NCBI GenBank assembly: GCA_034670405.1
Contig: JAXDDX010000011.1
Coordinates: 6,888,501 to 6,952,500 of the forward strand
Length of the DNA stretch: 64,000 bases
Origin: Hoplostethus atlanticus
Taxonomy: Eukaryota > Chordata > Actinopteri > Trachichthyiformes > Trachichthyidae
Reading direction: 5' to 3'
Shown: piece by piece, positions 34,337-64,000 of the stretch
Numbering within the stretch: position 1 is the first letter of the stretch
Layout: the number at the start of each line of letters is the position of its first letter
The notes under the pieces: generated by a model
Seen by the model: only the letters and a program-made list of their open reading frames with translations
Database searches by the model: none
What the model was told of the DNA's origin: nothing
Translations under genes and position numbers: made by a program

Positions 34337-36308
34337 TTATTTTATTTTGTCCATCAGCTCATGGCATTGAGTTGTTTTGTCTAAGGGGCTAACGGGGGAT
34401 GTGCTGGGCGGCGAGCTGGACTCTGCCGGCTGCCCTAGCGAAGGCTTGTTTTGCCCCTTCTGTGCCAGTTCCTTTGCTGAAGGTGGACGGAGAACACACA
34501 TGGCCGCTTGGCCGTCGCGTATGGCTTTCGGCTTGGAAACGAACCCCACCATCACCTCTATTTGTTGCACCATCTGCTCCAGAGTCGTGTCCTGTGGTTT
34601 AAAACACAAGTGTAGAACATTCATGTAAAATGGACTATGTACAATCATGAAAGGCTAATGCTGAAATTCACTGTTCTTCGCCCTCTTTGCCATTTTGCAA
34701 GATTCAACAGCGCAGTTTGGCAGACAGCATAAAATGAATGTGACAGAAGAGTGGACCGACACATTAGACCCCCAGAAGACTACACAAGCTGCTCCTGCAC
34801 CTGAAACCGATGCACTGGTTATTTACAAAAGAGAGCCAGCCACCAAAAAAACACTGGTTAAAAATGTAAACTAATAATCCACACAGAACTGGGTAGTTAG
34901 CATGAGCAGCGATGGCCGCCATGGCTGAACAGACAAAGAAAAGAGCTCCACCTACAGTAACTCAAACTTTGTCAACAGAAAAAGACATCACAGTACTGGA
35001 CACACTGTTTGATTGACAGGTGATCTCTGGGAAGTGCAATGAGAAACACTACAGCAATGAAGCTGAGAGACAAAGATGAGGATGGTGAGGATTTGCACTT
35101 TAATTCTGATTTACCATGGGTGACGTGAGGTTTGTCTCTCGTGATGCAGTGAGTTCCTGATGAAATAATCACCTTTAAGTGCGTATTAAAAAAAAAATAA
35201 AAAAACTTGGACTTGAAATAACTACCTGACCCGATAGCTCAGTACTCTGGGAAGCCAAGCATGGAGATGTGAGCTGACATCACTAGACTTTTATTTTGAA
35301 GGCCAGCTGTGGCGCGCAGGAGGTTTGGCTACACTGGTAGAGCTTTGATGAGCACCGTTTTCTGCCAGCAGGGTCTCTTTACCAATAGCTAACGCACCGG
35401 TTTCAGGGCCAGTAGGCGGTAAAGAGTAAACTGGAGCACGACTGGTGACTCCAAACGTGACCTTGCACAGCATACACACAATTACACTGAAATTCCTGAG
35501 TGAATTTTGAATCACTAGCAGGAGAAACAACCAGAGATTTCTCCTCACCAGGGAGACGGTGGGTTCCGCCCGTCGTGATCGCAGGGTAATCCTCACATGG
35601 TGCTTCTTGTCCAGCCAGCTCTGGACTTGTTTCAGCTTGGTTGTAAGGTCATGGCTGGCGATATCGGACGAAAACGTGAGCTCCTTCACCTGCACGGGAC
35701 CTGCAGAGAGAGAGAGGGTACAGTCCCGTTTCACAAACTATATCATGTTGTCAGATTTGAACCACTAGATAGGTGAGGTTTTGATCGCAGATTTGGATGC
35801 AAGCACCGAACGCGTGCCCGAGAATGTCCTTTTTGAATGAAGCCCATGGTCGCCGGCGGGGGCGATACATACCTGCCTTCGCCTTCTGTTTCTCGCGCAG
35901 CTTCAACTGTTCTTCGTGGATCTGTTTGCCGCTCATCAGGCGGTAGACGGGAGGGTCTTTGTGTTCATTGACGAGCACCAGCTTGAGACCCTGCTCGTCC
36001 ATGAGTCTGATGACGTCCGCGCGGTGCATGGCGCCCAGGTCCTCGCCCGTCTCGCTGATCACCTGTAGGTGCCGCTGCTGGATCTTGCGGCCAACGCTGC
36101 CGATCGTGGCGCGGGCCCGGGGGTCCTGCTTTTTTTTCTTTGGTGCGAGACTCTCTCCGGTGTCGCCTACTGTAGTGGAGAATAGAGAGCATTTCCAGGA
36201 GGGTGCGATGTTGAGGAACCTAGAGGGTGGCGTCCAATAGCCAGCACCACCACCACACATGGACCTCGCTGCATGGCTTAGCACCCACCTCAGGCAACCT
36301 GCAGACAT
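34337..36308 (-). CDS. mtif3: MTIF3, mitochondrial translation initiation factor 3, complete, 280 aa
   Basis: Binds the mitochondrial small ribosomal subunit and promotes subunit dissociation and start selection. Three coding exons on the minus strand: 35873-36308, 35549-35700, 34337-34591 (843 bp, 280 aa plus stop; human is 278). An N-terminal Arg/Ser-rich, acid-poor presequence (MSAGCLRWVLSHAARSMCGG) fits mitochondrial import. The IF3-N domain is about residues 62-145 (IGSVGRKIQQRHLQVISETG, HKDPPVYRLMSGKQI). The IF3-C domain is about 150-240 (VKELTFSSDIASHDLTTKL, DTTLEQMVQQIEVMVGFVSK), followed by a Pro/Ser/Gln tail typical of the mitochondrial form. The ATG lies 4 bp after an acceptor-like GTCTAG, so a leader exon is expected upstream. 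An AATAAA overlaps the last codons. Confidence 0.93.
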
Positions 36309-36419
36309 ATCCTAGACAGAGAGAGGACAACTGAGCTGCAGACAGCACTTAAATAGTCCCTGTGTCAAGATGTTGCATCAAATCACATGGAATTATGTGA
36401 TGCATGGGTTACAACCATT

Positions 36420-41305: not shown

Positions 41306-44300
41306 ATGACACGAAAGAGCTGGATGACTTTGTTGGTGGTTCTTCTCTGGATCTGTGAGTAGACCTTATCTACAAGTCCTACAGCCTCACGGGGCTCTTG
41401 GGGCTCTTATTCTCTTAGTATGCTATCATTTGAGCATTAAAATGGGAAGAACCTATTATAATCTGTTATAAATTGCTATTATAATGTAAAGACGATTTCA
41501 TGTTAGGACTTTACCTTGATATTTCTTTCACTTATCTAGTTGTTTTTTTTCCAGCCCTGAGTAGTAATACACCTTGTCAGAAGAAAATCCAAAAATGTTT
41601 GCCTAAAGAGGGACCTGCTGTTATTATTGTTGATAACTACGACGGTATCGTAAACCATGTACAACACGGTGAGTTAAAGCTACAATGCACATTTAATTCA
41701 ACTGTCAACTTTGATGCCCATCAGACGCTCAATTCATTTCAACCCTAAAATCTTCCCGCCAAGGTAAAGAAATGGTCACACCGATCATTGCTGGTGTGTG
41801 ATCATTTACGATTGTTGGCAGTGTTAAAAATGCTACCTAAGTATTATAGTATAGTAGTATATTATAGTAGTATACCTAGTATTGTATTATTTGACCACTT
41901 TTAAAGTTTTATTACATTTTGTTCCTGAAATCCACCCTGAATCCACCCTTCTGCTGGGATCAGGATAATGATTTTTTGGATCAAAAGTATCCCAATTCTA
42001 CTAAAACGTTTTGAACAACACATACTGAAGGTTTGATCCAGATCAAAACCAAGAGTGGATTACGTGATCTAATCCGATTTCAGAATCCTTTTTTTCTTTT
42101 GAACAACCCATTTTTAAGATTTGATCCAATCTGATAGCCGTGATCCGATCAGATTACTTCTGAACAACTGAGGTAGAAGATGAGGTAGAAGATGCGAAAG
42201 AAAGAGAAATATAAGTAGTAGTAGATTAAAAAGACAAGACAGAGAATCGAAAGAGAAAAGGGGGAGTTGAAAAGGCCAGAATAAAAGCTTTACAAGCTGA
42301 CAAATGTGCCGAACTCAGCAACTTGTTTATGTTTAAAACAAGCTCGCGGCTTGAGAGTGAAGGTAACGTTACAGAACAAGTGCCAGAAGCTGATGGTGAC
42401 GATGAGACAGGTATGCTAGCTTAGGCTACAGTGCCAAGATGTCAGGTGTGCAAAACAAAATATAACGTGTATAACGTTGCCTACAAACCACAATTCAAGT
42501 TTAGTGTCCAGGAATTGTGTGGCGTTATGGCATACAACCTATACGATACCAATAAGTGCTTTGTTAAATGCAAAATGGGATGTTGTGACGCTTGTGAGTG
42601 TGAGACACTTTGTTGTCTATTGTAGCCTGTAAGCAGCAGCAGCCTGCTGGCAGAGACAAAGCGGATGAGGGGGCCTCAACTTCAGGTAGTATTACTCAAT
42701 GTTAAAGACGATCAAAACAAAATACACTGTGAATAACAAGGTTGTAGAGAATAGTGTACTATAGCAGACTTACATAGTAAAGCTATAGTTATATAGCTCT
42801 AGTATAATAGGTTGTGAACTAAAGTGGGCTGGTCTGAGGCATGAAACTCCCGGGGCTGAAAATGAGTCCCACTGTGGCCCTGATTGAGAAACAATATATA
42901 CTACACAACTATGTATACATTTTGTATGTGTAATATTTATAAAGTTTAGTATTATTAAATGTCCAAAAATCTTTTCTTCACAGCAAGCAAATGTGTTGTA
43001 CTGCTGAATAAAACATCAACTACACTAAGGAGTGAGTACAGCCCTACTCATGATACTCACTGAATGTCAAATAAAAAAAATATTATCTTGCCAAATAAAA
43101 ATCAAACTGTATTTCTGTGTTTAATGAACAGAAGGGTGCAGGAACATGAGACTACAGATGAAGCAGATGAGTGATAGTAATCTACTGTTCCTTTCAAAAT
43201 GGCACGTCAACAGGAAACTGTCTCTATATGTCCTATCTGGGCAGAGGTGCAATAAGGCTTTGGAATCTGTCCAACATGCAGGTGATCATGAGATCAGCAC
43301 ATTTGAAATGGATGACAATAAATATTTCTGACAATTATTGTAGAGAGATTGTGTTCCAAAGTGTATACCCCCGTATTGGTATTGGTATCTTTCATGCGGT
43401 GGAGCCACTGCAGCGGGGCATGGTCCGACCAGAGGGTGAAAGGCCGAGCCAGGAGGTAGTAACCGGTCAGCCCCAGGAACCGCTTCACCTGCTTTTCCGT
43501 CCTGAGTCTCGGGCAGGCTGCAGCCGCTGCGGTCTTATCTATCTGGGGCCACACCAGCCCTCTCCCCAAGTGGTACCCCAGATACCGTACCTCTCTCCGT
43601 CCAACCGCGCACTTCTTCGGGTTGGCCGTGAGCCCCGCCTGCCTCAGCGACTCCAGCACGGCCCCCACATGTGCCGCTCCCAGCTGTCACTGTGGATGAT
43701 AACATCATCCAGCTAGGCAGTGGCATACGCAGCATGCGGGCGCAGCACCCGGTCCATGAGGCGCTGGAACATAGCAGGGGCGCCTAACAAGCCGAACGGG
43801 AGTGTAACGAATTGGTACAACCCGTACGGAGCAGTCCTTGGACTCTGGAGACAAGGGAATCTGCCAGTAGCCCTCGGTTAAGTCCAGTGTCGTTAAAAAA
43901 AAAACGACCGTCCAGTAGCTCGTCGACCATTGGCTAGGTGCCGAATTTTTTATACATAATTCACCCGCCGGTAGTTCACGCAGAACCGTATCTCATACAG
44001 CAGACACTGATGTTCCTGGTCCTGGAGCAAATTCTCGCGTGACAGCCGCCCCAGCGTGTGGGAGTTTTGCTCGCAGGTCCATAATGTACTGAATCTCATT
44101 TTTGCTTGCTCTCTGACCTTCCTCCCAGCTTTCTTTAATTAGGCCCAGCACCCCCTGGGGTCTCCTGCCGAACAGGAAGGATTACGTGAAACAGCGCTTG
44201 CGCAACACTCTTTGCTGAGATATTGCACAAAGGCACTCCAGGTATCGCGTTGCATAATCCACTAGGACTAATACAAAGCGATATCTAACTGCCCAATGAG

Positions 44301-47300: not shown

Positions 47301-50300
47301 ATATCACAAATGACAGGGCGCCATTATTATCTCACCCCCCCCCCCCCCCACCTGCTAACGTGAGAATAATGATATTACAGCACCAGCCTGCGGTGCTGTG
47401 GTTGTGTTTAGCTTTCAAGATAGTCACCCATGCCTCATTTTAAAAATCATTGAATCATCAAGTGCCGTCTCATATATAAGTGCTGTTATAGCCGCAAAAG
47501 GGGGTCCAACTCCATATTAATGCCCATGGTTTTAGAATGGGATGTCCAGCAAGCTCATATAGGTGTGATGGTCAGGTATCCACTGACTTTTGGTCATATA
47601 GTGTAAGTGGCTATGGCTAGTTTCCTTTCACGCCAAGCCTTAGAGCGTATTCCTGTGCTTTGTCATATCAACACTGTACAGTACATGTAGAGAAAAACAC
47701 TTATTTGTACTGTTTCTCTGCAGATTGTAGAAAATCAAGAGCAGCTGTCTCACTTTTCAAGAACTGTTACGGTCTCAAAACAAGCATTTGAACAAGCATT
47801 CAATTTCACCAACGGTACTGCATTTGCAGCTGTGGTTCGGTTCCTCAATATGGCTAAGGTAAATAATCAACCAGACTTATATAATGGATCCACATTGTGT
47901 GATACTCACAATTCTGTGCTGTTTTTTTTTTTTGTTTTTTTTCTTCAGGATGAGCATAACAGCACTGTTTTAAACAATGAGGTTTTAGCAATTGAAATGG
48001 GAGGTGTTATTGTCAATCTCACGGACAAAATATCCATCACTTTTCCAAATGTCAAAGCGGTAAGTGGCATCATGACAGGGTATCATCTGATGTGTTGTTG
48101 TTGTTTTTTTAAATCAAAGAACGCATTTTTAAAGACTGTCTGTCGCTTCATTTCCCAGGCGGGGACTCCAAGTTGTCGATCATGGAACGGCGAAGGTATT
48201 TCGCTGCCGCTTAAATTTCATGTCCATGCCTGATGTGAGGTATTTGCAGTTTTTGCCGGATCAAATACTGGATACATAATCTGGAAAAGAAAAAAAAAAA
48301 ACCTCTGTGCATTTGTTGCATCCACCTCCTCCTCCCTGTCATTTACTCGGGTCACATATAATGTGCTTTCCATCTCACAGGAGCTCAGCCAAACTGGACA
48401 GAGGACGGATGTTGGACATTTATGGGCAAAGACAGCATTACATGCCAGTGTACGCATTTGACGTTTTTCGCTGTACTAATGGTACGTCCTATTTCCCTCA
48501 TAATATTTGCATGACACAATCCCGCAGTTTGTTTATTCCACTGATTTGCATCCCTACTGGAAAGGGCGCCAATAATCCCCACATAAGCCATCTGTTGGTT
48601 TAGCTGCATGCACCTGCTGCAGAAGTGAAAATATTCCCCACAAAGTAAGATGATTGTCGTCTTAAAAAAAAACACGCTTGGATGGTACAGTTGGGTCATC
48701 CACCAGCATGGCACACTGATTGCCATTGCCACTGATCCAACAGCTTGACTCCAGAAGTGTTAATTTTTGTCGCACCCCTGCAGTCTCCCCTCAATACGAC
48801 CATCTCTGCCGCTGACCTGAACTCCCTCACCTACATCACCTACGTCGGCTGTGGCTTGTCCTTGTTCTTCCTCTGCATAGTCCTCTTCATGCACTTCCTG
48901 CTAAGGTAACCTTTCCCCATCTAAGAGAGACTTGGGATAGTCTTTTTAAGGGGTGTGTGTGTGTGTGTGTGGCACATCTATGTAGAGTGCAATATTGCTC
49001 ATGGAAGTCACGTGTTGTGCCGCTTTGGTTAATGCAAATGCTAAAGTGTGGCCTAATATAAACAGGCCTGTTCTCCTCGACCACAGAGAACATTATGTTA
49101 TGAACATTATGTAAAGATATTGCCAGTAAGGAAATTAGATTGTTTGAAAGCAGCCACGCTGTTGGGAATCCTATCTACCTGATCAGTTATCTGGAGGAAA
49201 AAAGAAGCTCTTCCTCTCTGTCTTTTCCTTTCACGATTGTTGAAAGTAAAAAAAAATGGCCGTGTTTCCTGGGTTGTACGGTCACCCATCTCCACGATGT
49301 TGGAGAGTGGTAACTAAGACGCCGGTTATGGTGAGGAAAAGGATGAGTTTGAAGGAGAGACTGTTCAAAGGTTGCTGGGCCCTTTTAAGGTGGTATGATG
49401 AAGAGGATGAAGGCATGACCGCAATATCACTAGCTCACGTTTCTCGATGTCACCCTTTGCCTCTTCTCATCTGAACCTTCTCTTGACATGCTCCGTGCTT
49501 TTATCCTCTGCTTCGGAGCAACAAACAGATTTTTCAAGGTTATATGCTGAATGTCTTTAGATCAGGATTGTATGAAAAGGAAAATACCATTTCAATTAAA
49601 GAATCAAGTTGTGTTTATTCTGCTTTTTGCAGCTTGTTCTTAGTCAAAAGAATCGAAAGATAGACCATCATTTGCTCAGCAATGTAGATAATTTGCTGGA
49701 TTGAGGATATACGGTATTCTCATTGAGTTATCAAATGACATTAGCAATCAAAAAGTCATGAGCAACCAAAACAAACACTAGCATACATATCACCTCACTG
49801 ACATTGAACCCACCCTCCCAGGAGGACCAAGGCCAGTAAGGCCATGAAAATCCTCGTCCAGCTCGTTCTGGCCATGTCCCTGCTCAACCTCACTTTCCTG
49901 ACCAACAACTGGGTGGCAAAGATGAAGAGCCACATTGGCTGCAGGATCATGGCATCTGTCATGCACTACTCCATGTTGGCCACCTTCACTTGGTTTGCGG
50001 TGGAGGCCTTCCACCTCTGCCTGCAGGTCTACATGGCTGGCAAGATCAGGATCCATCGCTACATACTCAAAGTCTCCCTTTCCAGTTGGGGTGAGTTGGT
50101 AACCGTTTTTCCTCCTTTTCGAGGAGGTAAGGAATAGTTTGAGCCAAAGAATAGAAAAAAATAAAGTGGATAGATTTATGTTTTTTCCATTTTTCTGCAG
50201 ACTGCTTTACACTTTGAGGTTTGAGATGTGTGTGCTTTCACAACTATTGTATAATCTGAGCATTGACCTCATGGGCTGGCACAGTTCACACACTTCAAGG

Positions 50301-51498
50301 TGGCCGCAAGATTTACCATATTAAACTGAAAGCTTTTTAGGACCTTTTTTAATGCCAGTTAGATCCATTTTACAATTGGAATAAATGAAATGAAAGAAAA
50401 AACGAATCAATTGTGTGATTGGGCGAATTTCTCACCACAAAACAGCAAACCAAGAAACTACATTTTTAAGCCCTCCGAAATTGAATTTAAGAAGGAAAAT
50501 GCTATACTCAGTGAGTGTACCTTGATTTAAGACATTTTAAGACATTTTCAGGACACCCTACAGTTGATTAAAACAAAACAACAAAACTTCAAGCTTCAAC
50601 AAAACGCCTGCAGTTCAGTGGATAACCAGTTGTTTCCCCCTCCCCCATCTCCATCTGCATCTGCAGCACTACCAGGCGTAGTTGTGACCATCCTTCTCAT
50701 CCAGGACAAATATGGCGAACGCATCATCAACACCGACGTGACCATGTGAGTCCTGACCGCATCTCGGCAAAGCCCTGCTTTCTATAGATTGAATACTTTC
50801 CCTCATAAGATCATCCTACCAATTGTTTGAGTTATTTCCAAGAAATTTCAGCTTTGGGTTTGAGAAGCTCTAGCGCATGAAGCAGGTAAACTACACGAAA
50901 CCTTTTGTTTGTGGCCGGCTGACATCTTTCCTCTCCAATACCAAGGTGCTGGATAACGGACGACGACGTCCACTACGTCGTCAACATAGGCTACTACGCC
51001 CTGGTCTTCCTCTTCACCTTCACCACCTTCATCATCATACTGCGCTGGCTCTACCACCTCAGGGGAACAGCAGCAGGCACGGCCCAGCAGATGACAACCA
51101 GCAAAAGCATTTTCACCGTCATGGGGTTGTGCTGCATGCTGGGCTTCACATGGAGTTTTGCCTTCTTCGCCTACGGTGTCCTGCAGGTGCCCTCCTACTA
51201 CATCTTCACCACCCTCAATTCTTTCCAAGGTATCCACATGCTACGACCGTATCCCCACCCACCACATTTCTTCTCTAATAATTGCTAATTTGATAATCAC
51301 AACTCACGAGTGAGCGTTTCTCCCCGCCCGGCAGGTTTCTTCCTGTTCCTCTACTACTACAACACCAGGAGGATGATTGGCGAAAACGACGAGGATGGCA
51401 ACAATAAGGAAAGCTCCAGCAGCAGCAGCAACTCGGGCACGATGAAAACCACCCTGGACAGCTGCAAGAACCCCTACAAGCTAAAAGATAAAAGATAA
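41306..51498 (+). CDS. Adhesion G-protein-coupled receptor, ADGRG group, about 638 aa, 15 exons
   Basis: Cell-surface receptor with autoproteolysis at the GPS. Exons: 41306-41354, 41555-41668, 44839-44877, 45126-45203, 46455-46626, 47105-47267, 47724-47858, 47949-48059, 48159-48195, 48381-48481, 48784-48905, 49822-50090, 50667-50745, 50946-51229, 51335-51498; all phases agree. A signal peptide (MTLLVVLLWISLSS) leads a Cys- and Asn-glycosylation-rich ectodomain without a recognisable adhesion module. GPS is at about residues 293-333: CRSW, then GCW, then TCQCTHLTFFAVLM, with cleavage expected between Leu326 and Thr327 and the tethered agonist TFFAVLM. The seven-helix region is about 344-590 (LTYITYVGCGLSLFF, FTWFAVEAFHLCLQVY, TWSFAFFAYGVLQ), with a Ser-rich tail. 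It resembles the short ADGRG1/3/5-like receptors; the exact paralogue is not assigned. An in-frame ATG at 41276 would add ten residues. Confidence 0.88.
41930..42180. repeat. Possible diverged interspersed repeat in receptor intron 2
   Basis: Contains imperfectly repeated blocks (TTTTGAACAACACATACTGAAGG-like and TTTTGAACAACCCATTTTTAAG-like, then GATCCAGATC and GATCCAATCTGAT). This looks like an old duplicated or mobile sequence. No termini were found. Confidence 0.3.
43340..44640 (-). mobile_element. Ty3/gypsy-like LTR retrotransposon fossil, broken
   Basis: Minus-strand remnants in intron 2 of the adhesion GPCR, antisense to it. Recognisable parts: a reverse transcriptase/RNase H piece at about 43380-43740 (with motifs such as NPKKCAVG and FLGLTGYY), an integrase-like piece near 44220-44290 and a gag-like piece near 44460-44600. 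No LTR pair was found. The element is far shorter than a whole Ty3/gypsy copy, has several breaks and is clearly old and inactive. Confidence 0.7.
45255..45375 (-). mobile_element. Non-LTR retrotransposon tail fragment
   Basis: Contains CTCTTTATTGTCCCCGAGGG and GAAATTGCAGG near GCAGCAGTACAAAACTGCTG, a common teleost LINE-tail signature (antisense on this strand). It lies in receptor intron 4. The clade is not assigned. Confidence 0.45.
46735..47042. mobile_element. AGCTGCAC-family MITE, diverged copy without clear ends
   Basis: Shares the internal blocks of the copy at 29335-29715: GTCCAGCTTTCTCTGG, CACTTCCTGTGGGCGGA, GACCATACCCGACACC and GGTGTATTTTCATATAAAAA. It lies in receptor intron 5. 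Confidence 0.55.
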
Positions 51499-52460: not shown

Positions 52461-54617
52461 TTATTCCAATAAGAGCGCCTCCGCTTCCTCGAGAGCCTTT
52501 TCCATTTCAGCTACCTCCAGGGAAAAGTTCTCCCTCTCCTGCACCAGATGTCCCCGTGCTTTAGTCAGGTCTTTCATTGTTGTTTGGATCGCCTAAAAAT
52601 AAAAAAATAAAAAAATACATTTATAAAGTGGGGACATTCAAAACAAACCCCGAAAACAAAAATGTTGGAAAGCCAAAATCATTGGTCAATAATAGTAATA
52701 ACATGGTATTGCAACTTCAAAAGCCCAAGCCATTGTACTTACCTCTAGTTGAGCGTGTTGCTTTGATGCAATATCACCAAAGGCCCTTAATTCATTTAGC
52801 AGGTCTGTGGAGACACTCTGAAATTGAGAGCATGAAAGACATCTGCTTACTAGATGTCCAGTGTGCATATGATATATAAGCATAGTGTAAATTAGATTCA
52901 TTATAAAATATAGGGAACATAATTTTGCTTTACTTTAATTATGTGGTTGTGCAGGTTAGGACAAATAAATAATAAGTGCATGTCTCTGATTTTATTGCTC
53001 GTTTTTCCAGTTGTTATTTTTGTGTGTGAGCGTAATTTAATCATGCTTTGTGTGTTTATGTTTTGATATAACATAGGGCAAATACGTGAGGACAAATAAA
53101 ATGTGACTGTATATCTGAAGTCAAAGTAAATAAAATATGTACCACCGCTTCTCTTCTTTGGTCTTCACTTTGCTGGGCAGCATCTCCAATACTTTCTCCT
53201 AAAACTAACCATCAAAGGGGTTGTAATTTAGCAGTTTACTAAAGCGACAACTGACAAAAAAAAACGGTATCTTGTTTTGAGCGGCGGGGGTTCACCGTCA
53301 CCTGGGTCTATTTTTCGAGCGACCAGGAGAACGTGACAGTCCTTTAGGTGCTTCTGGACATCTGCATTCTCCTTTTCAAGGTCACTGGACTGCAGCTCCA
53401 GTTCAGCTACTCTTTGCTGCAATGCAATAATGACTTTGGGTTCACTCTGACAAGAGGCAAATACAGTACACCAATGCTATGCAAATCCAGATCTGGGAAA
53501 AACAAGTGACGTGTAGGCTACAAGGAGTCCGGCTGATGCATGGAAAAAATGACGTGTACGAAGACAGTGGCTCTTCATGCAGAATAAAGTTATGGTTGAG
53601 TGTAAATCTGGTGTACCTGTGTCACCGTGAGGTTTTTCTGTAGTTCCTCGTTGGCAGCCACCAAGAGATGATTTTGGTCCCTCAGCTCTGCCTGTTGCCC
53701 ATACCTGGTGGAGACTCTATCAAAAGGTGCACATATTGAAAGCAAGGGTGAAGCCTAGCTTAGAGCAACTTCAGGCCACAATGCAATGTGCATGACACAC
53801 ATTAAGACACAAATAAAGGTTATGTAAGGAATGCAAACCTCCAGTAAAATGTATGACTCACCCTTTGTGAACTTTAGCGGCGACATTCTTCCTGGAAGAC
53901 AAAAAAGGTGGAATATTGTCAATATATTAAAAGCTGCACAAACTGTTTGAAAGGTAGGTAACTGTTTGAAATTTTTGAAATTCTACAACTCCTACAAGGT
54001 GACGTCAGTAAACTGCACACAGCACACTAATGTTTACCAACCCGGCAGATAGGGTGAATCTACAGGGTCTCAATTAGTGGAGTTGGGACGCTCTTCTTAC
54101 AGCGCCTCTTTGTGATTTAAGCTGAGACGCTGGGTGTATTTTGGCATAAAAATCTTATATAATAAATCACACTGTGATTCAAGATATTCTTTGTTGACAA
54201 AGATACTGCTACCTACTTTTATACTTTTTTCTGTTTGACAACTGCGATATTGAGGGGGGCGAGGGCCAAAGAAGAGGCATTAAATTCAAAGGGCCTGGGT
54301 TAAATTAGGGAGTACTATTGTTATTACCTTATGTTTTCTTTTTGAGGTTTGAGGATACCGTCTGTTTTAGGGATGGCACTGGCAGTTGAGGATACAGTTG
54401 CTGTGTCTTTGGATTCAAATTTATTGGTTGTTTTCTTCATTTCGGCAGGTGGTGGCACACCTGGAACAGACAGAAGATTGTTAATTGTACATCAGTTTTA
54501 TTCAACACGATAAATAATGAAAGGCGCTTGGTCATTTGATAGTTAGGACTACGCCGGCCAAAGATATATGAGTGATTTCATCTTACTTGACCCACCTCTA
54601 GGGATTTTTGAAGACAT
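52461..54617 (-). CDS. knstrn: KNSTRN (kinastrin/SKAP), small kinetochore-associated protein, about 229 aa
   Basis: Mitotic spindle and kinetochore protein (astrin partner) needed for chromosome alignment. Eight coding exons on the minus strand: 54596-54617, 54328-54460, 53862-53891, 53617-53716, 53302-53446, 53146-53198, 52743-52817, 52461-52592; all phases agree. The N-terminus MSSKIPRGVPPPAEMKK is polar and low in structure. From about residue 75 it is a near-continuous coiled coil (RDQNHLLVAANEELQKNL, LQQRVAELELQSSDLEKEN, HLKDCHVLLVARKIDP) ending EMEKALEEAEALLLE. Human KNSTRN, as I recall it, has the same core order: NQLLEAVNKQL, then CLAILESKGLDP, and the C-terminal EMEQLLEM. This copy is shorter (human 316) in the disordered N-terminus. 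The donor of the sixth coding exon may be 3 bp further on (53143). The identification rests on the coiled-coil pattern, so it is less certain than for KNL1. Confidence 0.8.
53928..54165. mobile_element. AGCTGCAC-family MITE, copy in a KNSTRN intron
   Basis: Begins TTAAAAGCTGCACAAAC and carries the family blocks CTGCACACAGCACACTAATG, GATTTAAGCTGAGACGC and GGTGTATTTTGGCATAAAAA. The right terminus is unclear. Confidence 0.5.
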
Positions 54618-56394
54618 TTCTGCACCTGCAATGAATCCAAGTCAGGCAATGGCAACTGTACCTGTAAAGAAGGAATCTGATTAAGTTAACTAGTCTCTCA
54701 GTGATGTGTTCACTGACCTATTGTCAACATTACCCTTACAGTATGACTACGAATAGGCCTGACAGTAAATCGATCAATCTCTATGAATTGCCAGGTGTTT
54801 TTGTGGACAGCTGACACTAAGAAAATAATAATTCCCCCAGTGTTCCTTCACCAAAATACACTGTGGTGGACAGTGACAGTGTGAGCCATTTCAAAGGTTA
54901 AATGTAATTTAAGTAAATTCTGCTTGGTGGATTATATGTATGTACTTCTATGTCCTAAGTGGTGTGTTACGAGCCATGTATGTTTGCTAATAAGCAGGGC
55001 GGCGTTAAATTAACCGATTTTGACGGTCACGTATCGGAGCTTGACAGTTACGTTACCTATCCTGCAGAACTCCACACAGTAAACATGCGCTAGCTACCGA
55101 AGTTATACGTTCTCCGTAACTGAAATATTTGTGCTAATGTATGTTCCACCATTCGTTATGGAAACATCACACAATAATAACAATAATGCTAATCAGAGGG
55201 TTACCTTCACGATTACGTCTAGTTTGCAAAGCAGTTGAACGACAGACAAACAGAACCACCCGCTCAAGGATTTGAAAAGGTCCCGCCCTGTTACAGGGAC
55301 TTCCGTTTTGCACACGATAGTTCCTGTATCAATAATTAGCAAAACACTATTCAGCATTTATGTCAGTCAAAAATGATTGTATAATTTCATGATTTGTATT
55401 TAAAAATTGTATGAGCAAAATTAATTTACTTAAACAGCCCGAAAAAGCAGGGAAATCGAAAAAGTTGACAAAAACGTAGGCAAGACTGCGCATGCGTGAA
55501 GGCGGAAAATTCAAAACTGACAACGTTTGCTTCTATTCGTACATCGACCTAGACAATGTATCAACGAAGTATACTTAACATAAAATAAAGAAAAGGCTAT
55601 CTGTTTCAAAGCTCCATAATTCGTAACAACTACGAGGTATGTGTTTCCTTTGGGTTTCGCTGTTTTTTTTGTTCACATTTTGATTGGCGAACGTTAGCTA
55701 ACGTGGGCTAACATATTCGTTAACTAAGGTTACTGTTGATTAGTTTGGTAGCGAGGCAAAGCTAATCTAAGCAAAGATTTAGCGATTTTCTATGCCTATC
55801 AAAAATCGCACATTGACTTCACTGTTAATAGATATGTAATGCTTTTGCGGTTGAATTGGTATGTTTGTGGACAAGTGCTTGTCGCGGTAAAGAATAATGC
55901 AACTGAGGTCAGACATAGGAAGAGGGCTGTAGTGGAGGGTAAACCCACCTAGTACTCGACTCGGACCCTATCCCCTGTTTATTTGCGGAATTGTTTACCC
56001 ACTTTTAGACTGACATATATATTTGTGACATAAAGTAAATTTCAGTGGTTTTCGGCATACTTTGATTGTTCGTGATAATTGTCATCTTTTCCCACTTTCA
56101 CACGTATCAGAGAGTGATGCATTTGAGTTTGTTTTGCAGCAAACTAAACATTGCAATGACGACCACAAATTAAAAATCCAGCAAGTAGTTATACATACAT
56201 AGCTGTGTCCTGCCATGACAGGACTGCAGATATATCCTTGTTGAGGGGAATGCACAATTAATGCAATTGCAGTGATTTGAGAAATGTATATATGAGCTAT
56301 AGCTTATTTTAAAATATATAGTTTACTAAATTGACCTATTTCACAGATGATATAACTTCCTGTAAGTGATATTGTTTTATTTCCACAGTTGAAG
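54618..56394. other. KNSTRN-KNL1 head-to-head spacer with both 5' UTRs
   Basis: Holds the KNSTRN leader intron, the shared promoter area and the KNL1 leader exon (ending 55636) with its 0.75-kb leader intron. The acceptor TTCCACAG at 56381-56388 lies 6 bp before the KNL1 start codon. No other coding sequence was found. Confidence 0.6.
55205..55540. promoter_or_regulatory. Bidirectional KNSTRN/KNL1 promoter
   Basis: A likely KNSTRN leader exon ends with donor GTGAAG|GTAACC (minus, at 55205). A likely KNL1 leader exon ends with donor TACGAG|GTATGT (plus, at 55636). Between them lie an NRF1-type palindrome TGCGCATGCG (55487-55496), GGCGGAAAATTCAAA (55501-55515) reading toward KNL1 and, reading toward KNSTRN on the minus strand, GGCGGGACCTTTTCAAA (about 55270-55286). 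GGCGG followed by TTTGAA-type hexamers resembles the CDE/E2F plus CHR arrangement of G2/M genes. The hexamer here is in the inverted form TTCAAA. No TATA box is seen. Start sites are inferred. Confidence 0.55.
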
Positions 56395-59300
56395 ATGGAG
56401 CCACTTGATGCTGCCAAGAATGAGTGAGTAACATGTTTATTATTATTTTAGAGAAAGCAGTTGTCTGTTCCTGTGCCTAAGATGAAACTTGAAGCAAAAA
56501 TTTAGCTACTGTGTACCTAAGATGACCCTTGTCCTGTTCCTCTTGCTTAGAGATAACTTTGCATTCATACTATAAAGTCAATTTGACTATAGTCTTATTT
56601 TTACACTCATCCAATGGCCACCATTACAGAGTATAATGTGCTTCATTCATGGTTGTTCACATAAAGTTTGGACGCTAACTGCCAAAAAGCCCCGTTCCAA
56701 AAGGTATTTACCAACAAAATATTTTTAGATCTGAAATGATCTCCATAACATGAAGTTAAAAACAAAAGTGACGTAGGAGAGAAGCTTACAATCACTAAAC
56801 ATTGTTATTGGCATTTTAGATTATGCTGCTTTCTTGTTTACCTCAAATGTTCTATTTTTAATCTTCTCATTTACATTATTTTGGATCAGATATGGTTTTT
56901 GTTGAGTACTGAATAGAAGCCCCTATTTGTTGAATTTGCCGTTTGTGAGTAACAGTTGCGCCTAAAGCAGTTAGTCACTTTGTGGCCAGGGTCTAGCAAT
57001 AATAGATCAAATGTTGTGTTCTCTGGTGTTGTTGAGGGCAGCCACCTGAATATAGTTCCATGTTCAAATCAAATCAGATTTATTTATAAAGTGCACACAA
57101 ATACAATTTTAAAAAGAAGAGAAAACAAACAATACAGTAATGAATGGTACAGATCTTGTGTGTTTGTGTATGTGTGTGTGTATATGTATGTGTGTGGGTG
57201 TGGACGTGTACATGTGCATAGTGAAAATGAATACGAGAGAGCTCTGGAAATGGATAAAAATATATTAAAATGATTTCACCACATTGGCAGGACAAATTGT
57301 AATAATCAACACTAGAATGAAATGACATGTAGCTGTTGGGCTGTCTCTGCACTGGCGTTGAATATTATGTTTCATGTTATATGTTGCAGTGAAAACATTG
57401 GATCGTCCAAGCGGCGCATTTCCTCGGTCAGTGCTACATGTGTTAAATGGACAAAGTATTTCCGTTTTCTGTCTCTGCTAATGAATAAACACATGACCTC
57501 TGCTATTCCTTATTTTCAGATTTTAAAAGCACCACGGACATCCCTCAAATTTGCTGACCCAGAGCAACTGGAAACTCCGGTAAAAGGATTGCTTGATTTG
57601 ATATTTTGATTTAATTCCTCTGTCACTGCTGCTTGTATGGATTTTCCACTATAGTGTGCTTTAATCAGTTCAATCCAGCCTATCACATCATTCTGTATAA
57701 ACCCAAATTGCAATTTAATATATTTCTGCGATCATAGCTTAGTTTTATTTTTGTATATAAATATCCAATATATATTAATCAATATATTGTTTATATATAT
57801 ATATACATATACATATATATTATTTTTTATATAATTATTTTTTTTTTTAACTTATTTTAATTAATTATTATTTTCATTAAGGTGGAAGTCTGCAAACCAG
57901 TCGAAAAGAGGAATTCAAGAAGAGTCAGTTTTGCCCCCGCTAACGATGTTCTTCTGTTTTCAAAGTGAGACCCTAGAAAAATAGATGTCTTCATTTCAAA
58001 GTCTTCACAAAGATGTTGCTTGTTTAACTTTTTTTATCTCTACTTTATATTTACAGGGATGTGAAAAATGTCGCTCCTGCCCGAAGTCCTCTTCAAAACT
58101 TGTCAACAACTAGTAAGTATGTTTTAGTGATTTTGGTGTATAGGCCCAGTGCCTTTCTTTGCTGAAACAAGGACCTCTGTGGAGGTTGTAGATTAGCCTA
58201 TAGCCTTACATTAAAACAACGAGAATGAGTGGTAACGGACTACATTGAAAAGAGGAACATGAGGCCTATGTTAATAGTGTTAGGTGTGTCTTGGTCTGAA
58301 CACGTACATTGTATGTCAGTAGCCACATGCAAACTACCTGCTCCTGCAAGCTCGGATCCTGTTTGACGACACAAGATAACGCCATAATCTGGTGCCAATT
58401 TATTGATGAGCATTTGGCCCTGTTATTTCCATGGACAGCCAATTTATGTCTGTAGGATTCAGTCTGTTGCCAATCCTCAATGTATTTGTCCAGTTGCCCA
58501 ACCCCCATGTGTAAGATCCAGCTTTCCTAATAATATTATAATAATCGAAATCAGACATTTCCTGATTACGTCAATCCCAAGTAATAGTTGTGGCTAATTA
58601 AAATAAGACAGTGGTCGACTGGAAATCAGCTGTTGAACCAAAAAAGTTGCATTTGAACATAAGATACTGATTATTTTAGTCATGAAAATTGTGATAAATG
58701 GCATTGAAAAGTCAAAACAATTTTTTTAACGATAGTGTTTAAGGATGTTGATTTTATCCTATCATAACCTGTTGGAGTCTCTGGTCTTGGTGTGTTGAAT
58801 AAGAAGGTAGAATAGAGCCTGTAATGATTGACCAAAAGCAATTCTGGAATAATGCCTCCGTTCAGTAATAATTTTCACATATTTGAATTTGGGTTGGATT
58901 GCTGTTTTGTCTTCATAGTAGTTGAAGAGGATGGCTTGGATTGTTTTAAGGTTAAATAAACCACACTGGTGCAGCTCGAAAATAAGTTGCCCTGCACATG
59001 ATTATCTTTATATTTTAAACAGTTTTTAACATTTGTCCAACCTTTATTCCACAGCAGTGGCAAATGCTGAGAAGAGGTAAGTTGACTTCCACCTACTACT
59101 ATTTTAGACAATAATCATGGATTCATTGTCTGACCAAAACAGTCAATTTATATTCCCCAGTCTTCCATAGCAACAGTAATGTTACACTTTTCCTGTATGT
59201 TCTCTTACCCAAAGGGTCCAGGTGGGGGTCACTGAAGAAGGGATTCAACTAATCACTGGTAGATAGGCAAAATAACTTAATATGCTTTTTTCTACTTGCA

Positions 59301-62300
59301 ACAATAACGACAATTGCATTAATAATCACTGTTGGCATTTAAATTACCTTTTATTAAACTCCCATCGCTAATTGTAGGTATGGAAACCTTGTTGAATGCT
59401 CCTCTGCATGCCTCTCAACAAAGAAATAAGGTGAGCTTAGAAATTCACTTGCTTTGCTGTTTTGCTCATTTCACTATTTTTGGCTCAATAGGTTTGCAAT
59501 TCGTGAGGAAAAACTGATATTTGACAATTTATAACTATGTTCTTGCAGAATTTTGATATCAATCTACTGTAATGAGCTTGCACTGACTACTACTCATACT
59601 GAAGTTAATTTTTTTTGGTCAATTTTTTATTTACCAATATCTACATACAAAAATAAAACTGAGCTGGAATACTTGGGGTCAGTGAGCCACTTGGGCTGTT
59701 TTTCATCAGCCAGTTCTGCTTAAAATGTAAGGTAAACACGCATTTAGATACATTTTTGTATCCTATTGCTCACATAGTCAGATATACTGACATTAAAGCG
59801 ATGACATCGATGAAACAATGGGTTAAGTTACCCGGGCATACTGCTCTCTAAAATAATGTTCTCCTCTACTTGCAGTGACACTTTTTGTCCTGTAGGTGTT
59901 GCTGATAACCGCTGTATTCACTCAGGAACTTGGTTGACAGTTCGGTCCCAATTAACTGAAAGAGTTCAATGAAATATTGATTTTGCAAGAATTTCTCAAG
60001 GCGGTCAATAATTCTTGCTAAGGCGGCCTGCTTTGCCTATAAAGGGATGCGGGAAAACCTGCATTTTTTTCTAAGTGGAGACAAATGCTCTTTTTATGGT
60101 GGCCCACCACCACTGAATGAATGAAACACTGTAATAATGCTTATTAGGGATGTCCTCATAAAGTTAATTTTTAGTGTGCTTGCATTTACATTGAGTGACT
60201 TGTCTTCCTCAGGAGATTTTCACTTTCAACCAGGATATTGAAGATGACTGCAGAGAGAAAACGGTGATGTTTACTGCAGATGATGCATCTATGGATGTGA
60301 CCCACTGTCACACTATAATCATTGGCAATAATTCAGAATCGTATTCAGTTTCGCCAGACCAACATTGTGACCTTTTACCTACTTGTGGAAACATGGATTT
60401 TACTTTCTCCATGGAGAGGAGAAAAGGTGAGACATCCGGTCCGCCTAGAAATATATCCTCAACTGTGCATAGTTTGGATCCAGAATTTGAAAACTTCCTT
60501 GCTAGTCTCTCTGAGCCAAGTGACCCGAGGGGTAATCGTGTGATGGCAAAAGTGGTGTGCAATGCTGAACCATCCCCTCAAGAAACTGTAGATGCAAATT
60601 GCTTCCTGGTCCAGCTTAAAACACAGAGAGCTGGTGTGGATAAGGAGAATCAGGCTCCAGTTTTTACACCAACTGTCACAGAAAAGCCACTGAACAAAAC
60701 CTGGAAGATTGGAGAATCATCTAATAGAAGTGTAGTCTTTCCAGAAGATGATCTAAGCATGGATATGACTGAGGCTCATACAGGCCATATTGTGGGGAAC
60801 ACATCTTCTGATGAGCCTCTTAATTGTCTGTTTCCTACACCAGACCTTTACCCAGCCTCTGACCATTTGAAGGCAACAGAGATAACTTTGCGACAGCAAA
60901 GTAGCAAAACACTGGGATGTACATCATCTAAACCTAATGGTGTCGAAAGTACAAAGAACCCAACAGCTGTCCTTGATTCCAAGATAAGTGCTAGTGAATT
61001 GCCCTCTCTAAATAAAACAAGAAGCAAGTTGGACCTAAATTTGAATCAGGTGCCTCCCTTAACTGAAAAGGGCATAATCTCTCACACGTCTTATGATACA
61101 CATCGTATATTATACCAGGAAGAGGATACAAGGTATAAAACCTCTCCATCTGAATCTGATGACATGGACTTAACAAGAAGTCAGACAGTTGCTATTGAAG
61201 GTGAAAGCCTCTGCCCTGTCAATACTTTGCAGAAGAAAAAGCAAAAGAGTTTGTCTTTCATAACAGCTTCAAGCAAAACCAGTAATGCCTTTGAATCTGA
61301 TTCTGATGACATGGAGTTTACAAGTTGTCAAACGAGGGTCATTGAAGCAAGAAATCTTGATGCCATAAAGGCATCAGTGAGTGTTGACACTGCAGGACCA
61401 GTCAGAATGTCCAAAGTTGAAAATGGTATGGATAGAACGGTACACCAGGGAGAAGGCACAAAGGACAGTAATTGTGAATTTGATGACATGGAAATAACGA
61501 GAAGCCAGACAGTTTCCATTGATGCCAGAAGTCTCCGCACAGTCAATCCTTTGCAGAACCAAAAGCGAAAGAGTCTGGCCCTCATGACAAGTTCCACTAA
61601 AGCCAGTAATACCGCAGAAGACGAGTGTGGCATGGACATGACTAAAGCTTTCACTGTATCTATTGATCATATTTCACAGTCAGATGGCTCAAGAATGTTA
61701 GACAAGCCATTGAACAGCCTCTTCCCCAAAACAGATCAAGAAATGAAGATGTGGAGAGCAGAAGCTGATTCTGATGACATGGAGTTCACAAGGTGTCAAA
61801 CTAGGGTCATTGAAGCAAAGAATCTAGATCTTGCAAAGCCATTATTGAGTTTTAGCACTGGGGGACCAGTCAGTATACTGAAGTCAAATAAAAAACTTTC
61901 AGAAAGTGACAATGGTATTTGCATGATGGCGCACCAGGGAGAAAGCACCAAGTACAATAATTGTGGCTCTGACGACATGGAAATAACAAGGAGCCAGACA
62001 GTTGCAATTGATGCCAAAAGCCTCCACACAGTCAATCCTTTGCAGAAGAAAAAGCGAAAGAGTCTGGCCTTCATGACAACTTCCACTAAAGCCAGTAATA
62101 CTGCAGAAGACGAGTGTGGTATGGACATGACTAAAGCTTTCACTGTATCTATTGATCATATTTCACAGTCAGATGGCTCAAGAATGTCAGGCAAGCCTTT
62201 GAACAGCCTCTTCCCCAAAACAGATCATGAAATGAAGACATGGAGAGCAGAAGCTAATTCTGATGACATGGAGTTCACAAGGTGTCAAACTAGGGTCATT

Positions 62301-64000
62301 GAAGCAAAGAATCTAGATATTGTAAAGCCCTTATTTAGTTTTGGCACTGGGCGAGCAGTCAGTATACTGGATTCAAAGAAAAAGCTTCTTTCAGAAGATG
62401 ACAGTGGTATAGATAAGATGGCGCACCAGGGAGAAAGCACCAAGTACAATAATTGTGGCTCTGACGACATGGAAATAACAAGGAGCCAGACAGTTGCAGT
62501 TGATGCCAAAAGCCTCCACACAGTCAATCCTTTGCAGAAGAAAAAGCGAAAGAGTCTGGCCTTCATGACAACTTCCACTAAAGCCAGTAATACCGCAGAA
62601 GACGAGTGTGGTATGGACATGACTAAAGCTTTCACTGTATCTATTGATCATATTTCACAGTCAGATGGCTCAAGAATGTCAGGCAAGCCTTTGAACAGCC
62701 TCTTCCCCAAAACAGATCATGAAATGAAGACATGGAGAGCAGGAGCTGATTCTGATGACATGGAGTTCACAAGGTGTCAAACTAGGGTCATTGAAGCAAA
62801 GAATCTAGATATTGTAAAGCCCTTATTTAGTTTTGGCACTGGGCGAGCAGTCAGTATACTGGATTCAAAGAAAAAGCTTCTTTCAGAAGATGACAGTGGT
62901 ATAGATAAGATGGCGCACCAGGGAGAAAGCACCAAGTACAATAATTGTGGCTCTGACGACATGGAAATAACAAGGAGCCAGACAGTTGCAATTGATGCCA
63001 AAAGCCTCCACACAGTCAATCCTTTGCAGAAGAAAAAGCGAAAGAGTCTGGCCTTCATGACAACTTCCACTAAAGCCAGTAATACCGCAGAAGACGAGTG
63101 TGGTATGGACATGACTAAAGCTTTCACTGTATCTATTGATCACATTTCACAGTCAGATGGTTCAAGAATGTCAGGCAAGCCTTTGAATAGCCTCTTCCCC
63201 AAAACAGATCATGAAATGGCGACATTGAATAAAACAGAAGCCGATCAGGTCTTCTACAGAGAAAGGGAAAGTCTGTCACCCCTAGATGGGAAAACTACAG
63301 ATTTAAGCGAGATGATTCCTTACTCTGATCAAAGCCCACGAATGGACGTGAAATTTCACTTTGGGACCGAAGGCTTCAATAATAAGATGCCCATATCATC
63401 TGATTCTGATGAGTTTCGATATGACAAGAACTCAGACTGTTGTATCAAGAGACGTCTACATTGCAGATGACACTTCAAAGAAAAATGGAAACCCGGACAA
63501 CTTCCCACAGCCAGTTGTGCCATTTGAGGGCCTCTCAAAGGCATTACACGACCAAGCAAATGGTACAGAAGCACATCTTATAGATTGCAGGCGTAACATT
63601 CCTGATGGCTCTACAGACCTAGGAGACATGGAAATGAACAGAGTCAAAACTATTCCAATGGAAACAAACCAAGGAAAGGCTAATATCTCATTGTCTACAA
63701 GTGTGTTGCCAGAAGATCATGAAATGATGGTCACCAAAGCCTACACAGTGAATATTGAACAATTGAAAGCACCTAGGAATGCACTGATATCCGTACCAGT
63801 TCCTGAATGTCCATTTGACAACCTGACAAACCATCCAGATTCTCTTGACTCAAAGGAAATGGAGAGCAGAAAAGACCCTGAAGTAAGACATGAAAATGGT
63901 TCTTTGTCACAGGGTTTGGAAAGCTCACCCAATGTTAGTCCTGCAGTCCACGAAGTTGATAAGTTATCTTCAAGAAATGCTCAGACCAGACGAATGAGTT
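56395..64000 (+). CDS. knl1: KNL1 (CASC5/Spc105), kinetochore scaffold; 5' part, continues past right edge
   Basis: Outer-kinetochore scaffold whose phosphorylated MELT motifs recruit BUB3-BUB1 for the spindle checkpoint. Exons: 56395-56423, 57390-57426, 57520-57579, 57882-57964, 58057-58112, 59055-59076, 59215-59258, 59378-59430, then a large exon from 60213 beyond the window. Both PP1-docking motifs are present: SILK (residues 22-25, across the exon 2/3 border) and RVSF (56-59). The large exon (codon 129 on) has at least 15 MELT-type motifs, from MDVTHCHT through repeated MEFT-RCQT, MEIT-RSQT and MDMT-KAFT. Four tandem units span 61299-63219. One surplus base near 63417 moves the frame. Reading resumes one frame over at DMTRTQTVVSRDVYIADD and stays open to 64000, so sequencing error or a real indel is likelier than a true end. 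The C-terminal coiled coil and RWD domains lie off the right edge. Confidence 0.93.
57066..57112. mobile_element. LINE/SINE tail-like fragment in KNL1 intron 1
   Basis: AAATCAAATCAGATTTATTT followed by ATAAAGTGCACACAAATAC resembles the very common teleost retroposon tail (AAATCAAATTTATTTATATAGC-like). It is short and diverged. Confidence 0.4.
57161..57204. repeat. TG-rich imperfect microsatellite
   Basis: Interrupted (TG)n/(TA)n tract in the first coding intron of KNL1. Confidence 0.7.
61299..63219 (+). repeat. Coding tandem repeat of KNL1: four units, 468-492 bp, each with three MELT motifs
   Basis: Units start at the (D/N)SDDMEFT motif at 61299, 61767, 62256 and 62748, spaced 468, 489 and 492 bp. 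Each codes, in order, for a MEFT motif with CQT, a MEIT-RSQT motif followed by VNPLQ (KKKRKSL in units 2-4, NQKRKSL in unit 1), and a MDMT-KAFT motif with SIDHISQSDGSRM. Units 3 and 4 are almost identical over their whole length. Unit 1 is the most diverged. All lengths are multiples of three, so copy number can change without breaking the frame. Confidence 0.92.

Follow-up and report, generated by a model that had tools for sequence, protein, structure and literature searches.

The KNSTRN and KNL1 Genes

The window analysed here, a 64,000-nucleotide stretch of contig JAXDDX010000011.1 from the fish Hoplostethus atlanticus, contains two kinetochore genes, KNSTRN (kinastrin/SKAP) on the minus strand and KNL1 on the plus strand, which stand head to head with 1777 bp between their ATG codons, in agreement with the orientation and the coding distance of 1.8 kb given in the original prediction. 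It seems likely that both genes constitute a divergent cell-cycle promoter pair with back-to-back core promoters, and that their adjacency represents one junction of a single inversion with respect to mammals.

The coding region of KNSTRN runs on the minus strand from 54617 down to 52461 and consists of eight coding exons with GT/AG ends (54587-54617, 54328-54460, 53862-53891, 53617-53716, 53302-53446, 53143-53198, 52743-52817, and 52461-52592). This model is open throughout, without internal stops, and encodes a coiled-coil protein of 233 amino acids. Its alignment with human KNSTRN covers 190 amino acids, of which 28% are identical (blastp 2e-10), and the score was matched by none of 1000 heptad-register shuffles and none of 1000 local shuffles. 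The C-terminal coiled-coil region is homologous to residues 159-316 of human SKAP. The human sequence used in the alignment was checked against PMC4843017, with which it agrees in its length of 316 residues, in the SLLP motif, and in all of the lysines K140, K149, K161, K164, K168, and K170. SKAP binds EB1 through a SxIP-type motif, the human version of which is SLLP (PMC4843017), and the sequences SKIP and SAIP, present toward the N terminus of the fish model, are putative SxIP-type EB1-binding motifs. When the protein was searched against the 633-Mb genome to which the window belongs, 14 candidates were scored and all five matches, at E values up to 0.01, fell at this locus; no second KNSTRN locus was matched in this genome, nor on contig C4, which carries the related gene block described below, and a search of prokaryote genomes gave no match.

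That the minus-strand gene could be a different coiled-coil gene is highly improbable. Such a misassignment would be in keeping with the database searches, in which Pfam gave nothing above a family cut-off (the best value being 0.0023), the PDB gave no chain under E 0.19, and weak coiled-coil matches were the only ones in both, with the spurious similarity that is common among coiled coils, and with the use of a human sequence verified at the points named above only; however, an alignment score reached in 0 of 2000 shuffles, the agreement of that sequence in six residues, length, and motif, the SxIP-type motifs at the N-terminal side, and a location that is the very place predicted for KNSTRN by a single inversion all argue against it. 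Judged from its sequence, the minus-strand gene is KNSTRN, and its earlier naming is upheld by the alignment, the shuffles, and the fact that this was the sole locus matched in the genome.

The coding region of KNL1 starts at the ATG at 56395 and extends on the plus strand to the end of the frame at 63470, through exons 56395-56423, 57390-57426, 57520-57579, 57882-57964, 58057-58112, 59378-59430, and 60213-63470. Its translation carries SILK and RVSF motifs in the N-terminal part and 15 matches to a MELT-like pattern, the KNL1 MELT motif being recognized by PF19221 at 2.8e-50. Among PDB chains, 8ppr_K, 'Kinetochore scaffold 1', was matched at 2.5e-6, and the CASC5 chain 6czo_B gave a non-significant 0.67. 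The assignment of the plus-strand gene as KNL1 is confirmed by PF19221, 8ppr_K, and the SILK and RVSF motifs. The C-terminal RWD domain PF18210 was found neither in the one genome nor in the 14 control genomes searched, this domain being expected beyond the window and possibly split by an intron, and a part of KNL1 searched in viral contigs gave no match. A Pfam BCAS3 match on a KNL1 exon (1.7e-6, above the cut-off) was judged spurious, with no stretch passing on its own, and a small candidate exon at 59055-59076 was dropped since it breaks the frame.

The MELT array of KNL1 contains a tandem repeat at 61443-63225, with a 492-bp unit present in 3.6 copies at 95% match; each unit holds about three MELT-like motifs, and the expansion looks recent. 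Near 63.4 kb, the MELT-type text of KNL1 enters an open stretch of 446 codons in another frame of the plus strand (63352-64000, continuing to 64689, past the window end), which points to a one-base frame shift at about 63352-63470, either an assembly error or a real frame break.

The Predicted Promoter Region between Both Genes

The ATG codons of KNSTRN and KNL1 both stand immediately after splice acceptors and, thus, each gene is expected to have a non-coding leader exon. Candidate leader donors were sought with a crude frequency matrix, to be taken as a guide only, some coding-exon donors scoring low by it (in KNSTRN, -1.6 bits at 53143 and 0.2 bits at 53617). A single donor-like site above 3 bits was obtained on each side, at 55205 for KNSTRN (minus strand, 54690-55600) and at 55636 for KNL1 (plus strand, 55350-56380). 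Both predicted donors are 431 bp apart and, therefore, the transcription starts of KNSTRN and KNL1 should both lie within 432 bp. The predicted leader exon of KNSTRN together with its core promoter spans 55205-55330 on the minus strand (donor after 55205, upper boundary guessed), and the predicted leader exon of KNL1, non-coding except for one upstream ATG, spans 55516-55636 on the plus strand (donor after 55636, lower boundary guessed). The earlier estimate that the leader exons are 0.25-0.3 kb apart is plausible as a prediction from these donors. The upstream ATG of the predicted KNL1 leader lies at 55556; on the KNSTRN strand, none occurs in 55205-55330.

KNSTRN and KNL1 are probably driven as a divergent pair from a CpG-enriched promoter stretch of roughly 0.4 kb. 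Here, 400-bp windows with their centres at 55500-55650 have a CpG observed/expected ratio of 1.44-1.45, at the 99.7-99.9th percentile of the window. The core promoter directed toward KNSTRN would occupy 55271-55305 and combine an ETS motif, an E2F-type site, and a site of the cell cycle genes homology region (CHR) type. There, the E2F/CHR-type element GCGGGACCTTTTCAAA (55271-55286, minus) consists of GCGG, a 6-base spacer, and TTCAAA; it is overlapped by the E2F-type 7-mer GGCGGGA (55281-55287, minus) and adjoins, at 55299, the ETS/GABP-type motif CGGAAGT (55299-55305, minus). The core promoter directed toward KNL1 would occupy 55487-55515, with TGCGCATGCG (55487-55496, plus), which we take to be an NRF1-type motif, followed by an element of the cell cycle-dependent element (CDE)/CHR type, GGCGG-AAAA-TTCAAA (55501-55515, plus), in which, read along the direction of transcription, the GC-rich part precedes the TTYRAA part with 4 bases between them. 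Both core promoters would stand back to back at about 215 bp from each other.

The sequence TGCGCATGCG occurs once in the window against 0.01 expected, and at least once in 1 of 100 shuffles. Likewise, SGCGG-N4-TTYRAA is present once in 64 kb against 0.07 expected, and is seen in 7 of 100 window shuffles; when the 432-bp stretch was shuffled 20,000 times with its dinucleotides preserved, 36 shuffles had it at least once. When spacers of 4-6 bases are admitted, there are three matches in the window; two of these fall in the 432-bp stretch, one per strand and each directed toward its own gene. Such an arrangement of one match per strand never arose in 20,000 shuffles of that stretch and arose in 6 of 20,000 when a 1-kb stretch was shuffled, and two or more matches anywhere were seen in 1 and 13 of 20,000, respectively. 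TTYRAA is the LIN54-defined CHR consensus; a described model places CDE and CHR four nucleotides apart, and the CDE is written as SGCGCS (PMC4974476).

Several of these observations weigh against the reading proposed here. The spacer was widened to 4-6 bases after the KNSTRN-side site, with 6 bases and not 4, had been seen, and at least three matches of this wider pattern occur in 11 of 100 window shuffles, which is not exceptional over 64 kb. Moreover, the SGCGG half of the pattern was our own choice, and about 18 motif patterns were tried. SGCGCS is absent from both strands of 55150-55700, whereas 21 matches are listed for each strand of the window, and only the wording 'CDE/CHR-type' is therefore used. 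The single motifs also occur elsewhere, the window holding 8 GGCGGGA, 7 CGGAAGT, and 103 TTTGAA, and no CCAAT box is found in 55205-55636, the nearest one seen being at 55683. The leader exons themselves are predictions of the crude donor matrix.

One Shared Promoter or Two Core Promoters

In mouse, the bipartite DREAM sites of Casc5 (Knl1) and Knstrn have been tested by luciferase assays; mutation of the Casc5 site abolished p53-dependent repression, and the Knstrn site was among 21 tested, of which the abstract states that the tested sites affected expression (PMC10581385). Because DREAM sites have been reported for the mouse orthologues separately, DREAM would be expected to repress both fish genes in resting cells through the elements described above, and MuvB-type activators could raise KNSTRN and KNL1 in G2/M through the same elements. 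The earlier proposal that a shared promoter ties the dosage of both genes exceeds the evidence, since mouse Casc5 and Knstrn each have their own DREAM site (PMC10581385), and adjacency is thus not needed for co-regulation.

The suggestion that one promoter may serve both genes is possible, yet a pair of core promoters facing outward, with one E2F/CHR-type element apiece, is a better description of the sequence. A single, truly shared promoter, in which one set of factors drives both directions and couples their output, is distinctly unlikely: the presence of NRF1-, ETS-, and E2F-type motifs within as little as 432 bp would suit it, as would the enrichment of GABPA and E2F1 motifs in human bidirectional promoters (PMC3121118), but the motifs form two clusters, the 181 bp between them having 30% GC (42% in the window), and each cluster has a directional element of its own. 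Since the clusters are separated in this way, two back-to-back core promoters fit better and are probably what the stretch contains.

A further possibility, doubtful but to be taken more seriously, is that the adjacency is incidental, with independent cell-cycle promoters joined by rearrangement and gene loss and no common regulatory element. The assignment of a separate DREAM site to each of mouse Casc5 and Knstrn (PMC10581385), the outward element of each fish gene, and the frequency of divergent pairs, which comprise 13% of medaka genes (PMC11676430), would all be consistent with it; against it, the predicted starts lie within 432 bp of each other, probably in one common open CpG-enriched region, which both genes would share. 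A divergent pair with two back-to-back core promoters remains the favoured interpretation.

Gene Order and a Proposed Inversion

In goat, the order is RAD51, KNL1, tRNA, RPUSD2, C15orf57, CHST14, BAHD1, IVD, KNSTRN, and DISP2 (PMC10763158), which bears out the earlier statement that KNSTRN and KNL1 are not adjacent in mammals. In the genome of H. atlanticus, contig C4 shows the order DISP2-like (+), RPUSD2-like (-), CCDC32 (+), BAHD1-like (-), and IVD (-). All three matches of CCDC32, which we take to be a synonym of C15orf57, fall on C4 and none on C11, the contig of the window. The DISP2-like gene, of the Patched/sterol-sensing type, lies at 5500601-5503990 (plus), the RPUSD2-like gene at 5506230-5507652 (minus), CCDC32 at 5513027-5514274 (plus), the BAHD1-like frame at 5532080-5533792 (minus), and IVD at about 5549360-5557513 (minus; PDB IVD at 3.9e-27), followed by an inositol-trisphosphate 3-kinase (plus) and an ALK/LTK-type kinase (minus). 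Pfam matched 7 of 10 of the C4 frames in one set and 3 of 7 in another, and DISP2 and RPUSD2 were assigned partly by position, Pfam giving families only.

With respect to goat, the block after DISP2 appears reversed on C4 for the five common genes, and a simple inversion would give the strands that are seen, provided that the presumed human strand directions hold. If the segment from KNSTRN to RPUSD2 is inverted in the mammalian order, two junctions arise: DISP2|RPUSD2, which is observed on C4, and a head-to-head KNSTRN|KNL1, which is observed in the window. The fish and mammalian layouts would thus be linked by one inversion, that of the KNSTRN-IVD-BAHD1-(CHST14)-CCDC32-RPUSD2 block. The position of the junctions on different contigs would be explained by the loss of alternate copies after the teleost genome duplication, which may have left KNSTRN and KNL1 alone on C11.

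The gene order also offers points against this proposal. The papers cited give order only and not strands; BAHD1 was recognized on C4 by eye, without a Pfam match and with a weak BAH-type match (0.014); CHST14 was not located; and two frames inside the C4 block, a PCMT-like one (minus) between RPUSD2-like and CCDC32 and a 7tm_1 receptor one (plus) between CCDC32 and BAHD1-like, are absent from the goat list. The recognized neighbours of the pair in the window are not from the goat block, so that the duplicate-copy loss is an inference only. In favour of the proposal, a genome search with the MELT family matched this locus and no second one, although this is a weak test for another KNL1, as the array itself yielded one motif only. 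The 13 RAD51-family matches (RAD51 and its paralogues together) were distributed over contigs C33, C47, C140, C218, and C129, C4 and C11 having none, and GCHFR was placed on C4 at a distance of 2.5 Mb from the block.

Ancestral or Derived Layout

The order RPUSD2-CASC5-RAD51 has been reported in Xenopus tropicalis, anole, chicken, mallard, mouse, and human, with CASC5 absent in turkey and the segment moved in zebra finch; in zebrafish, RPUSD2 is on chromosome 17 and CASC5 on chromosome 1 (Zv9), and stickleback is similar (PMC3229566). This zebrafish location is a misfit for a simple common teleost location of the gene and counts against the favoured interpretation. Tetrapods represent one layout state and H. 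atlanticus the other, so that the alternative of an ancestral or a fish-specific layout, as first posed, is narrowed to the polarity of one inversion. It seems rather unlikely, if conceivable, that the divergent promoter was an ancestral joint cell-cycle unit of bony vertebrates, split in tetrapods by an inversion that broke inside the promoter and let each gene keep its own half together with a DREAM element.

Should the pair prove to be conserved among fishes, it would constitute a natural experiment, with the same genes on one divergent stretch in fishes and on separate promoters in tetrapods, which would test whether physical linkage adds to co-regulation beyond cell-cycle elements of the same kind; the other junction of the inversion is also visible in this genome. 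The genes are ordinary, and the inversion and the outward-facing pair of elements are the parts for which no description was found in a literature search, conducted mostly on listings.

Other Features of the Window

Pfam matched 7 of the 10 window frames searched, one of them a retroelement. Outside the pair, the window contains an EH frame, REPS1-like by eye (1246-1755), HECA (25174-26376 and 29732-29944), an IF3_N frame, MTIF3-like by eye (35754-36311), and an adhesion-type 7tm_2 receptor (49808-51285). The retroelement fragment lies at 43297-43686 on the minus strand, with reverse transcriptase and RNase H matches that are both under the Pfam curated cut-offs.

Comparison with Known Divergent Pairs

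Divergent gene pairs are well represented in vertebrates, with 1737 pairs in medaka whose starts are less than 1 kb apart, amounting to 13% of its genes (PMC11676430), and 822 annotated bidirectional pairs in human, among which cell-cycle terms are over-represented (PMC3121118). KNSTRN and KNL1 are not named in the main text of the medaka paper (PMC11676430). With 13% of medaka genes in divergent pairs, the head-to-head layout alone is ordinary and a functionally related pair is not rare. The fish pair resembles vertebrate bidirectional pairs in its opposite strands, predicted starts less than 1 kb apart, CpG enrichment, and E2F/ETS-type motifs, but it differs from generic ones in that its members are both kinetochore genes and in that a separate directional element of the cell-cycle type is present on each side.

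With mouse Casc5 and Knstrn, which are the orthologous genes, the fish pair shares a bipartite element with a GC-rich and an AT-rich part in the direction of transcription. However, the KNSTRN-side element departs from the mouse-type DREAM pair in its 6-base spacer and, in contrast to the separated mammalian genes, which in goat have five protein genes and a tRNA between them, the fish elements face outward from one stretch.

A further comparison is offered by NUSAP1 and OIP5, which we take to be a mitotic head-to-head pair. In the goat table, NUSAP1 and OIP5 are direct neighbours within the same block (PMC10763158), and the excerpt of PMC10318543 makes no mention of a promoter common to both. 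Like them, KNSTRN and KNL1 are two mitotic genes that adjoin in a 15q15-type region; unlike the fish pair, NUSAP1-OIP5 occurs in mammals.

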